A DNA stretch of 49,253 nucleotides from an uncultured Clostridia bacterium. GTDB lineage: Bacteria; Bacillota; DTU014. The stretch lies in assembly GCA_900016865.1 (NCBI GenBank), contig FIZI01000023.1:1-49253 (forward strand). Direction: 5' to 3'. Shown here one piece after another: positions 6,461 to 10,663 of this stretch. The notes beneath the pieces are model-generated. The model saw nothing but the letters and a program-made list of their open reading frames with translations. It did no database searches and was not told where the DNA came from. The stretch's first letter is position 1, and each line of letters starts with the position of its first letter. A program made the translations under genes and the position numbers.

Positions 6461-6751
6461 TCAGCTCCTGTTGGAGCGGCTGCACTCGTCCTCCACCGCC
6501 GCACACACCAGGTGTACGGCACTGCAGTCAGCGCAGCGCTTCACCTCGTGCGTCCTTGCAAAGTCCTCCCAGTGTCTCAGCTGATCCATAGTGAGGCTGC
6601 CTGTCCCCTTGCACAATGGACAGATATTGTCCAAAGCAACGAGGATCGCCCTGCGGATGAACTCGGACCTATTGGGCACTCCCTCCATTGCCCTTGCCAA
6701 TTCCGCATCGACCTTAAACGTTATGACTTCCTGTCTCGACTGCTTCGCCAT
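6461..6751 (-). CDS. Ribbon-helix-helix regulator with a zinc-ribbon-like C-terminus
   Basis: A 96-residue protein. The N-terminus (about 7-40, with VITFKVDAELA and NRSEFIRRAIL) is a CopG/Arc-type ribbon-helix-helix DNA-binding domain, which works as a dimer. The C-terminus has CPLC (44-47) and CADC (73-76) plus His60, His68, His80, Cys83 and Cys90, so a metal site is likely. The gene is the last of the zinc importer operon, which suggests metal-dependent autorepression of that operon (inference). The chosen ATG has GGAGAGG 7 nt upstream and overlaps the end of znuB by 38 bp; a longer reading back to 6817 would lie wholly inside znuB and has no support. It is not a Fur/Zur-type regulator. Confidence 0.75.
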   Translation of the reverse strand: MAKQSRQEVITFKVDAELARAMEGVPNRSEFIRRAILVALDNICPLCKGTGSLTMDQLRHWEDFARTHEVKRCADCSAVHLVCAAVEDECSRSNRS

Positions 6752-7661
6752 CTTGTACACCTCTCCAGCACCCAGCACTCTGTTCAACCTCGCCCTGCTT
6801 GATCTGTACAGCTCCACCCCTGTTGCGAAATCTGCGCACGGCGAGGGCCAGTGCGTAAGCGATGCCCGCGATAAGGATCACCGTCGGGCCTGTCGGCAAG
6901 TCGTACGCATAGCTAACGCCCAGTCCGGTGGATGTAAAAATCATGCACAACAACGCAGCAGTCACCATCATAGCCTTTAGCGACCTGCAGAACAGCCCTG
7001 CGATAGCAGCAGGCAGAGTCAGGAGCGCAACCACCATTACTATACCTACAACACCCACCATGAGTACGACCGTGAGCGCAGCAAGACAGAGCATGAGAGT
7101 TGAATACATGCCGACTCGCAACCCGCGTGCAATCGCGAACTCGCGGTCAAAGATCACAGCTGCAAACTGATGGTAGAACACAACTGCTACAAGCAATATC
7201 ACCAGGTCCAGCCCGACTATAAGCCACAAGTCTTGCCTTGACATAATCAGTATATTGCCGAAAAGATAGCTCATCGGATCCACGTACCCGGGAGTCTTGG
7301 CCAAGAACAAGACTCCTACAGCCATCCCAACCGACCAGAGAGCGCCGAGTATTGTGTCCTCCCTCTGACGGGCCCGTTGACTGACTGCACTGACCAGGAC
7401 CGCAGCCAGCAGAGCAAACACCAACGCACCGTGTATCGGCTGGATAAAAGTGAGGCCCTGGGCTCTGTTAAGATAGAGCGCCAAACCGATGCCGCCCAGC
7501 ACCGCGTGCGATATCGCTCCTGCCATATAACTAATGCGCTGGACAACTACATACGTTCCAACAACGCCAAACGCCATGCTCGAAAGCACGCCTGCGATCA
7601 GGGCGTACCTCAGGAAGGGGATGTCCTGACTCAGCAGGGCTCCGACGAACTCAGACACCAC
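6714..7661 (-). CDS. znuB: Zinc/manganese ABC transporter permease
   Basis: A 315-residue integral membrane protein of the ABC-3 (ZnuB/MntB) family with about eight to nine hydrophobic helices. The N-terminal pattern (YALIAGVLSSMAFGVVGTYVV, then ISHAVLGGIGLA) is the family's characteristic start, and HAVLGG is the conserved coupling region. It forms the membrane channel that works with the ATPase ZnuC and the binding protein ZnuA. It overlaps znuC by 11 bp, a sign of translational coupling. The polar C-terminal tail (about 275-315) extends beyond the last helix and overlaps the start of the regulator gene. Zinc rather than manganese is inferred from the His-rich loop in ZnuA. Confidence 0.9.
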   Translation of the reverse strand: MVSEFVGALLSQDIPFLRYALIAGVLSSMAFGVVGTYVVVQRISYMAGAISHAVLGGIGLALYLNRAQGLTFIQPIHGALVFALLAAVLVSAVSQRARQREDTILGALWSVGMAVGVLFLAKTPGYVDPMSYLFGNILIMSRQDLWLIVGLDLVILLVAVVFYHQFAAVIFDREFAIARGLRVGMYSTLMLCLAALTVVLMVGVVGIVMVVALLTLPAAIAGLFCRSLKAMMVTAALLCMIFTSTGLGVSYAYDLPTGPTVILIAGIAYALALAVRRFRNRGGAVQIKQGEVEQSAGCWRGVQDGEAVETGSHNV

Positions 7662-8406
7662 CCCTCACCACCTCTTCTGACAGCCTGTCATGGCGGATCA
7701 GCCTGGCTCGCTTGCCGTACATCTGATATACCGCCTCGGCCGTCACCTCACTGGTTGGATGGACTGCCACCGTCTTGTCGACACATACGACCTTAGTTAC
7801 GCCTTCCGGGACAAACCAAACGTCGTGCGACACCATCAGTATGGTGATCTCTTGCCTAAGATGCTCCAGAAGGCCTATTATATCCTCCCTTGCGGCAGGG
7901 TCGATGTTGGCAGTAGGTTCGTCGAGCAGGAGCAGGTCTGGCTCTCCAGCCAGCGCCCTGGCTATGAGAACTCGCTGTTTCTGACCACCTGACAGGTCCG
8001 CAAATTGCCAATCAGACAACTCCGACATCCCAAGCCGCTCCAGTGCCCTGTCGGCTGCAAGCAGGTCGCTCGTAGTATAGCCTCCTATACGGTCTGCGGT
8101 GAGGCGTCCCATCAAGACTACTTCTCTCACTGTCATCGGCACTGACAAGTCGTGACTGGACTGCTGCGCAACATATCCAATGCGGCTACGGGCTTTCTCA
8201 GGCTCCATGCCGAAAACGCGCACTGCCCCGGACTGAGGCTTGAGGAGACCGACAATCAGCTTGAGCAAGGTCGTCTTGCCTCCGCCATTGGGGCCGATCA
8301 CGTAAACAAACTCGCTCTCTGTAACCCTCAGGCTAGCGTTGACTATGACCTGCACATAGCCATATGAAAAATCCACTCTGTCGAGCTCTATCGCATAACC
8401 GGACAC
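7651..8406 (-). CDS. znuC: Zinc/manganese ABC transporter ATP-binding protein
   Basis: A 251-residue ABC ATPase that powers metal import. All catalytic motifs are intact: Walker A GPNGGGKTT, signature LSGGQKQR, Walker B LLLLDEPT and the switch His in MVSHD. The chain is near normal length for MntB/ZnuC ATPases. The GTG start has GGAGG about 10 nt upstream. It lies between the binding protein gene (36 bp upstream) and the permease gene (overlapping), so the three subunits are made from one transcript. Confidence 0.92.
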   Translation of the reverse strand: MSGYAIELDRVDFSYGYVQVIVNASLRVTESEFVYVIGPNGGGKTTLLKLIVGLLKPQSGAVRVFGMEPEKARSRIGYVAQQSSHDLSVPMTVREVVLMGRLTADRIGGYTTSDLLAADRALERLGMSELSDWQFADLSGGQKQRVLIARALAGEPDLLLLDEPTANIDPAAREDIIGLLEHLRQEITILMVSHDVWFVPEGVTKVVCVDKTVAVHPTSEVTAEAVYQMYGKRARLIRHDRLSEEVVRGGV

Positions 8407-8442
8407 TAGTCATTCGCCTCCGCTATGGAGCACCTGTGCGCA

Positions 8443-9360
8443 TTAGTCCATCGCAAGCACCAGCTGCTCTGCAATCTCTAGAAGGTTCAAAAGGACGTCC
8501 TTTTTGAGTGGATCAATGCTCACGACTGAGGCCCCTATCGCTCGGGCTATGAGCTTCGCACTCGTATCATCAAATTGAGGCTGGACAAACACCACCCGGA
8601 TCTGGTTGGACCTAGCCCGCTCTATGATGCTTGCCAAACCCTTAGCTCCCGGACTCTTGCCTTCGGACTCAATAGACACTTCAACAAGGCCGTACTCCCG
8701 CGCTATGTGGCCGAGCACCGAATGGTATGTGAGAAACTCACGTCCTGCAAACGGCGTGAGCATCTGACGCAATGAATTGTCAACGTCCTCGATCTCCAAG
8801 CACAGCTCCCTTAGGTTCCGCTCATACACCTCCGAGTGTTCCGGGTCATAAGCCGAGAGAGCCCCGGCGACTGCACGCGCCATGCCCTCTAGGTGCGCGG
8901 GTGACAGCCAGACATGAGGGTCCTCGTGACCATGGCCGTCATCTTCGCAGTGATGCCCGCAATCTGCATGCTCTATCAACTCCACCACTGTGACCTGAGC
9001 TCCCGAACCCCGGATCTTGTCCACCATTCGTTCTTCGAACGGCAGTCCCGCACTGAAATAGATGTCAGCACCTATCAAACTAACCACTTGCCTCGGAGTA
9101 GGCTCAAATGTATGAGGATCCTGCCCTGAGACAAGCAACGTGGACACTGACACAAAACCGCCGCCAATTCGCTCAATCAAGTAAGCCAGCGGCGGAATGC
9201 CTACCGATATTTCTATGGTCTCGCGGCTACCCCCAGACGAGGCTTCCCCGGTTGCAGCGCGTGCACCGCCTCCATCCAGGACAAATAAGACACACATGGC
9301 TACGACAACAAGCGCTACAGCCCGAGCCAATCTAGGAACACGAGTCAGCCATTCGCACAT
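8443..9360 (-). CDS. znuA: Zinc ABC transporter substrate-binding protein
   Basis: A 305-residue cluster A-I metal-binding protein (ZnuA/TroA family) that captures metal outside the membrane. It has an N-terminal hydrophobic export segment; there is no obvious lipobox Cys at a canonical LxxC site, so anchoring may be by an uncleaved helix. Metal ligands are seen in DPHTFEPTP (His83), DPHVW (His149), the YHSVLGH segment and an Asp near the C-terminus. Between the first two sites is a His/Cys-rich loop (about 131-145, with GHHC and GHGH) typical of zinc-specific members. The ATG at 9360 was chosen because GGAGG lies 7 nt upstream; longer reading has no SD. It is the first gene of the operon. 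Confidence 0.92.
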   Translation of the reverse strand: MCEWLTRVPRLARAVALVVVAMCVLFVLDGGGARAATGEASSGGSRETIEISVGIPPLAYLIERIGGGFVSVSTLLVSGQDPHTFEPTPRQVVSLIGADIYFSAGLPFEERMVDKIRGSGAQVTVVELIEHADCGHHCEDDGHGHEDPHVWLSPAHLEGMARAVAGALSAYDPEHSEVYERNLRELCLEIEDVDNSLRQMLTPFAGREFLTYHSVLGHIAREYGLVEVSIESEGKSPGAKGLASIIERARSNQIRVVFVQPQFDDTSAKLIARAIGASVVSIDPLKKDVLLNLLEIAEQLVLAMD

Positions 9361-9394
9361 GCCAAACCCTCCGGAATATGCCAATCACATGTTC

Positions 9395-9423
9395 ATGATA
9401 ATACCGCGTATTACCGGAGTCAA
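9395..9423 (-). promoter_or_regulatory. Promoter of the znuA operon with a palindromic operator in its spacer
   Basis: On the minus strand, -35 TTGACT (9418-9423), a 17-bp spacer, and -10 TATCAT (9395-9400), each 5 of 6 to the sigma-A consensus. The palindrome TAATAC-CGC-GTATTA (9399-9413, read on plus) fills most of the spacer and touches the -10. A repressor bound there would block polymerase directly. The natural candidate is the ribbon-helix-helix protein at the end of this operon. The transcription start would be near 9388, about 28 nt before the ATG. Confidence 0.75.
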
Positions 9424-10575: not shown

Positions 10576-10663
10576 TGGTGCCGAAGGCGGGAGTCGAACC
10601 CGCACGGGCGCGAGGCCCACAGCGCCCTGAACGCTGCGCGTCTGCCAGTTCCACCACTTCGGC
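10576..10663 (-). tRNA. tRNA-Leu (anticodon CAG)
   Basis: An 88-nt tRNA with encoded CCA. The acceptor stem GCCGAAG pairs with CTTCGGC, with discriminator A. The anticodon stem CAGCG/CGCTG encloses the loop TTCAGGG, giving anticodon CAG. The long variable arm (GGGC...GCCC type) is that of a class II tRNA, and the T-arm contains GGTTCGACTCC. It has its own promoter and terminator and is a single-gene transcription unit reading CUG codons. Confidence 0.95.

Follow-up and report, generated by a model that had tools for sequence, protein, structure and literature searches.

A 2018 review lists only Zur and AdcR as sensors raising zinc import (PMC6103462), and a comparative study from 2004 reported that the delta-proteobacteria G. 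metallireducens, Desulfuromonas and D. psychrophila have znuABC genes but neither Zur nor Zur sites, leaving open "another regulatory mechanism" (PMC545781). Here we describe a 96-residue protein with a ribbon-helix-helix (RHH) domain and a Cys/His tail, encoded in the znuA-znuC-znuB operon of an uncultured Clostridia bacterium, together with the operator found at the znuA promoter. The operon lies on contig FIZI01000023.1 (assembly GCA_900016865.1), and the whole stretch of 49,253 nucleotides analysed is called the window. Judged from sequence, the regulator looks like a third protein family for the control of zinc import besides Zur and AdcR. In the open-access literature (subscription papers and regulon databases were outside the scope) we found no earlier description of an RHH regulator of zinc uptake or of its site.

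The regulator shares with Zur the target operon and the presumed logic, repression at ample zinc, but the fold is unrelated and the protein gave no Fur match (PF01475). AdcR, of the MarR family, also controls zinc import without Zur; it has the MarR fold and another operator, and no MarR domain was matched in the regulator. MetJ and omega-type RHH repressors bind as dimers to short tandem repeats, but have other co-repressors, other repeat lengths and no metal ribbon. NikR resembles the regulator in controlling an importer, in being metal-linked and in having an N-terminal RHH domain, whose helix starts with NRSE..IR in both proteins. The delta-proteobacterial NikR half-site GTGTTAC is one base from the GTATTAC of the regulator, but NikR half-sites are separated by N13/14 (PMC545781), whereas those of the regulator are 3 bp apart and its targets are znu, not nickel genes. 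No match to the nickel-binding domain NikR_C was found in the regulator up to E = 1, the protein having a Cys/His ribbon of 46 residues instead. Membership of NikR was rejected, since both NikR_C and the long half-site spacer are absent. The CPLCxGxG stretch of the tail is similar to the CxxCxGxG modules of anti-TRAP (RtpA) and DnaJ, but these proteins have no RHH domain and another function, and the alignment is partial: the profile match to 3lcz (E = 0.0054) covers only part of the domain.

Architecture, conservation and linkage to znu genes

The sequence-only reading had proposed znuA-znuC-znuB together with a small RHH gene, the product joining an RHH domain to CxxC...CxxC. All four genes were found on the minus strand of 6461-9423, and both parts of the protein were recovered. 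The Pfam RHH_1 match is above cut-off, marginally so (20.7 bits with a cut-off of 20.5), and CPLC and CADC are both present. Membership of the RHH superfamily is further indicated by the invariant F12 and K13, by NRSEFIR and by helices at 16-23 and 28-41 in the structure model.

An alignment of 78 regulators has 22 invariant columns: F12, K13, L18, N27-R33 (NRSEFIR), C44, P45, C47, G49 and G51, followed by H60, W61, F64, H68, C73, C76 and C83. Seven of these are tail Cys or His residues (C44, C47, H60, H68, C73, C76, C83). The tail length is fixed at 46 residues, with zero insertions or deletions across 68 sequences, and no Pfam family was found above cut-off in this part. Modelled alone with AlphaFold2, the tail had a predicted local distance difference test score (pLDDT) of 86.8 and consisted of a CPLC knuckle, a helix with H60 and W61, and a beta-hairpin with the second Cys pair.

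A single-sequence search found 7 members in 300 genomes of the phylum of the window. A profile search of 349 genomes returned the same 7 members above 148 bits, the next match scoring 21.7 bits. This sharp gap and the invariant columns indicate that the regulator belongs to a genuine conserved family, more than a chance resemblance. For the neighbourhood and operator counts, 84,980 species genomes were scanned, giving 247 relatives; the best 80 were retained, a set biased to close relatives. Each genome was counted once, resulting in 81 loci. Loci and genomes are referred to below by L and G numbers.

All three of znuA, znuC and znuB are present in 64 of the 81 loci and part of the set in 8 more, for a total of 72. 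The usual gene order is regulator-znuA-znuC-znuB. A regulator at the end of the operon, as the sequence-only reading had it, is correct for the window and its nearest relative L017 but is not a rule of the family, as most relatives have the regulator gene first; in three spirochaete loci (L052, L063, L072) the gene is convergent with the znu operon. The nine loci without znu comprise three ending at a contig edge, three near a gene for a COG0523 (CobW) GTPase and three without any metal gene (L024, L071, L080). In L071 and L080, both spirochaete bins, the homologue lies after an Asp/Glu racemase gene and lacks the operator. The planctomycete loci L024 (8317-8970) and L205 (2892-3596) have the same kind of membrane protein after the regulator; it has no Pfam family over cut-off and is possibly a metal permease.

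Since the main scan favours close relatives, linkage was tested again in evenly drawn genomes of two phyla, 326 from each. Both samples contained 23 members, of which 23 were beside znu in Desulfobacterota and 16 in Spirochaetota. A search had been suggested to see if the architecture always accompanies znuACB; linkage is strong in all three data sets, but some homologues have no link to metal genes.

Many RHH proteins are antitoxins, and the regulator could be one half of a toxin-antitoxin pair lying by znu by chance. We give this reading almost no credence: no small partner gene is conserved next to it, the neighbours that are conserved are the znu genes, and the tail is of metal type. It was rejected as contradicted by the gene order, no conserved toxin gene being adjacent.

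Operator and target genes

Gapped palindromes were searched for in the 250 bp upstream of the operon. TATTA-N5-TAATA, AATAC-N3-GTATT and ATTAC-N3-GTAAT were each present in 13-16 of the 81 loci, and shuffles reached 2 or 3. All three reflect a single pattern, a pair of near-palindromic heptads (GTAWTAC-N3-GTAWTAC) that repeat with a 10-bp period. Allowing at most two mismatches, this pattern is found in 71 of 81 loci. Of 810 random pieces taken from these loci 18 matched it, and the reversed pattern matched 0 of 81. The count rises to 74 of 81 if the znuA promoter is used in the three convergent loci and an alternative start codon in L064. In 38 of the 74, TTGAC ends before the operator, by 4 nt (22 loci) or by 6 nt (16 loci). 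The operator and promoter of the window (9395-9423) fall inside the interval of the sequence-only reading, which did not mention them. With one mismatch allowed, 0.03 operator matches are expected in the window.

The pattern was learned from the 81 loci and was therefore tested elsewhere. The tests on the window genome and on the phylum samples share some loci with the first set and are only partly independent of it; those on G360, G709 and G362 are independent. The 2.19 Mb genome of the window has one perfect operator, inside the znuA promoter, and the same is true of the genome of the nearest relative. Matches with two mismatches are not commoner in the window genome than for the reversed pattern (25 and 48, respectively), and no further target is claimed there. 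Across 18 member genomes there are 25 perfect matches against 4 reversed ones, a palindromic site being counted on both strands. G360 has a regulator-znuC-znuB operon that lacks znuA. This genome contains just two perfect sites, one at the operon and one on another contig, 23 bp ahead of a lone znuA. Similarly, G709 has one site before regulator-znuC-znuB and the other before a lone znuA. In G362 the regulator is near a COG0523 gene and away from znu; the single perfect site is flanked by znuCB and by a second COG0523 gene. The operator tracks znuA and not the regulator gene: it is at znuA also where the regulator is last (window, L017), convergent (L052, L063, L072) or elsewhere in the genome (L218, L280).

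In the two phylum samples the operator is present in 39 of 39 znu-linked members, compared with 1 of 7 unlinked ones. The pattern including the -35 element matched 12 of the 326 Desulfobacterota genomes, and 7 of these 12 belong to the 23 that encode the regulator. The eight sites in these 7 genomes all precede znu, regulator or outer-membrane-type protein genes, against none of the five in genomes without the regulator, which adjoin unrelated genes. These cross-genome tests indicate that the operator belongs with the regulator and znuA, and on this sequence evidence the operator and the target genes are well supported. The targets indicated are znuA and znuCB, with the COG0523 GTPase and the outer-membrane-type protein as further targets in single lineages.

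The outer-membrane-type proteins are encoded in L273 (2-1285, minus strand) and L280 (1791-3026, plus strand) of Desulfobacterota; the proteins are homologous (54% identity) and match no Pfam family, and their genes are preceded by the operator, one of them being divergent from a lone znuA. Their products are candidates for a zinc-regulated outer-membrane channel. The spirochaete member in L261 (1851-2477) has a perfect operator and no znu nearby, and is convergent with a DUF1007 gene. The additional perfect sites in G349 (within a coding region) and G354 look like chance.

The operator might instead belong to a Fur-family regulator, with the RHH gene as a passenger, and Fur-family genes are indeed present in 20 of 20 member genomes tested. 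The only genuine Fur-family protein of the window genome has B. subtilis PerR as its closest match (118 bits, against 47 for the zinc regulator FurB). It has no NCBIfam Zur match at 1e-8, and we detected no Zur in this genome. Fur- and PerR-like proteins are also present in the six further Bacillota members, and their best model is never Zur, a weaker result as NCBIfam models Zur on the enterobacterial type. None of these znu promoters contains the Gram-positive Zur core GTAATnATTAC, and a Zur site was rejected. Furthermore, among the sampled Desulfobacterota the operator is found before znu only where the RHH gene is present, a heptad spacing of one helical turn suits RHH dimers, and the half-site is similar to that of NikR (PMC545781). 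We rejected the passenger reading as very improbable. Of the proposed separate class of zinc sensor, the separate class of regulator is supported by the znu linkage, by the conserved operator at the znuA promoter, which is indirect evidence of binding, and by the lack of a detectable Zur in the window genome; the sensing is still a matter of interpretation.

The features of the operon are listed in Table 1. The start of znuA was placed at the ATG at 9360, which is preceded by GGAGGG; the mechanical open reading frame opens at TTG 9384. The best NCBIfam model of znuC is AztA, a zinc ATP-binding cassette (ABC) transporter ATPase, with a score under the cut-off of that model. The znuC, znuB and RHH genes overlap in series, the RHH gene sharing 38 nt with the end of znuB. 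Just upstream of the operon is an EamA-type permease gene, adjoined by a tRNA-Leu (CAG) gene at 10576-10663 on the minus strand.

Table 1. Positions of the znu operon features in the window
Feature	Position	Strand	Basis
-35 element TTGACT	9418..9423	-	promoter-like site search
Operator GTAATACGCGGTATTAT, two heptads	9398..9414	-	perfect match; in promoter spacer, 3-bp overlap with -10 element
-10 element TATCAT	9395..9400	-	best promoter-like site of the region, 10/12 matches, 17-bp spacer
znuA, substrate-binding protein	8443..9360	-	Pfam ZnuA PF01297, 6.8e-57; His-rich loop; third ligand His, zinc-type
znuC, ATP-binding subunit	7651..8406	-	ABC_tran PF00005, 1.6e-30
znuB, ABC-3 permease	6714..7661	-	PF00950, 5.4e-67
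RHH/zinc-ribbon-like regulator gene, 96 residues	6464..6751 (stop 6461-6463)	-	RHH_1; invariant residues in 78 homologues
C-terminal metal-ribbon-like domain, 46 residues, CPLCKGTG...HW..F...H....CADC.....VC	6497..6634	-	no insertions or deletions in 68 homologues; AlphaFold2

Metal, sensing and proposed mechanism

Manganese-type substrate-binding proteins carry Glu at the third ligand position. In 68 of 68 substrate-binding proteins linked to the regulator, both the second and the third ligand are His, and half of them have a His-rich loop. The COG0523 GTPase family is described as partly tied to zinc homeostasis (PMC2770081), so the COG0523 genes found as neighbours and targets also point to zinc. 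The sensed and imported metal could be manganese, iron or another ion, as ABC-3 importers carry Zn, Mn or Fe, the first His ligand is missing in some linked substrate-binding proteins, and NikR, another RHH metal sensor, senses nickel. The third-position His, the loops and the COG0523 genes make this quite unlikely.

A second question is the role of the tail. It might be a structural zinc site only, the protein being a metal-independent autoregulator of znu or answering another signal, e.g. the redox state. The likeness to the structural modules of DnaJ and anti-TRAP would fit this, and five invariant Cys could be redox-active. Against it, one structural site would need only four ligands and seven Cys/His are invariant, distant paralogues away from znu retain the knuckle Cys but not H60, H68 and C83, and the targets are zinc uptake genes. 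A purely structural tail is thus an unlikely, though conceivable, explanation.

Judged from sequence, the protein is probably an RHH repressor that controls zinc uptake in a metal-dependent way; two dimers on the heptads would exclude RNA polymerase and the zinc-bound tail would bring about repression. The two RHH dimers would lie next to each other on the GTAWTAC heptads, which are one helical turn apart, and would cover the spacer of the znu promoter together with part of its -10 element. The position of the operator in the spacer, with its 3-bp overlap of the -10 element, suggests that repression is by exclusion of RNA polymerase. The C-terminal Cys/His domain is predicted to bind zinc, and the zinc-bound protein to repress. 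When zinc is scarce the protein would leave the DNA, so that the importer is made and, from the same operon, the regulator itself, giving feedback. The sequences themselves show the gene, its order of domains, the conserved ligands, the linkage, the operator with its promoter overlap, and the target genes; binding of the operator by the RHH protein, the stoichiometry of two dimers, zinc as the ligand and promotion of DNA binding by the metal are what we infer.

Several observations weigh against this interpretation. The AlphaFold2 model of the whole protein has a low predicted template modelling score (pTM) of 0.38, and no significant solved relative was found by fold search with the whole protein or the tail alone, so we give the fold no name. 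Homologues in L071/L080, L024/L205, L254, L255, L258 and L263 have no link to known metal genes. In about one third of the linked substrate-binding proteins the first His is replaced by Ala or some other residue (NPATYEP; L014, L029, L049, L063 and others). Finally, sequence alone proves neither zinc over other metals nor the tail as a sensor as opposed to a structural fold.

Distribution and implications

Among the best 80 of the 247 relatives, orthologues occur in at least 10 phyla, nearly all from metagenome-assembled genomes: Bacillota, Planctomycetota, Spirochaetota, Thermodesulfobacteriota, Myxococcota, Hydrogenedentota, Gemmatimonadota, Acidobacteriota, Lentisphaerota, Zixibacteria, Glassbacteria and others. 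Searches of viral contigs and plasmids gave no relatives of the regulator, and a search of PHROGs gave no convincing match. In a quick tree built from the regulator sequences joined to those of the Znu proteins, most phyla cluster. The window and L017 are apart from the other 14 Bacillota, for which reason either transfer or an old separate lineage is possible.

Planctomycetota have 8 strong members and several divergent paralogues. Genome G536 has four (L193-L195 and L213), beside ABC-3 metal transporters or a TonB receptor; its sole perfect operator site is between a znuA and a divergent ArsP-type permease gene. A distant planctomycete group (L182-L186, L198) has the motif VVVTFRVD...PDKSAFIR...CPACxGxG...CxCCGT, which keeps the Cys pairs and is without H60, H68 and C83. 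A MerC gene follows in one case, and the group is possibly a regulator for another metal.

On balance we think it likely that these proteins are a third phylum-spanning family for the control of zinc import, combining an RHH domain, an undescribed metal-sensing domain of 46 residues and the operator GTAWTAC-N3-GTAWTAC. The family would replace Zur in some lineages, including the window genome, with a regulon reaching a COG0523 metallochaperone and an undescribed outer-membrane family. It is a concrete candidate, with a stated operator and stated residues, for the cases of znuABC without Zur. In Planctomycetota, Spirochaetota, Desulfobacterota and many uncultured lineages, where no curated model names these genes, the family can be used to predict zinc regulons.

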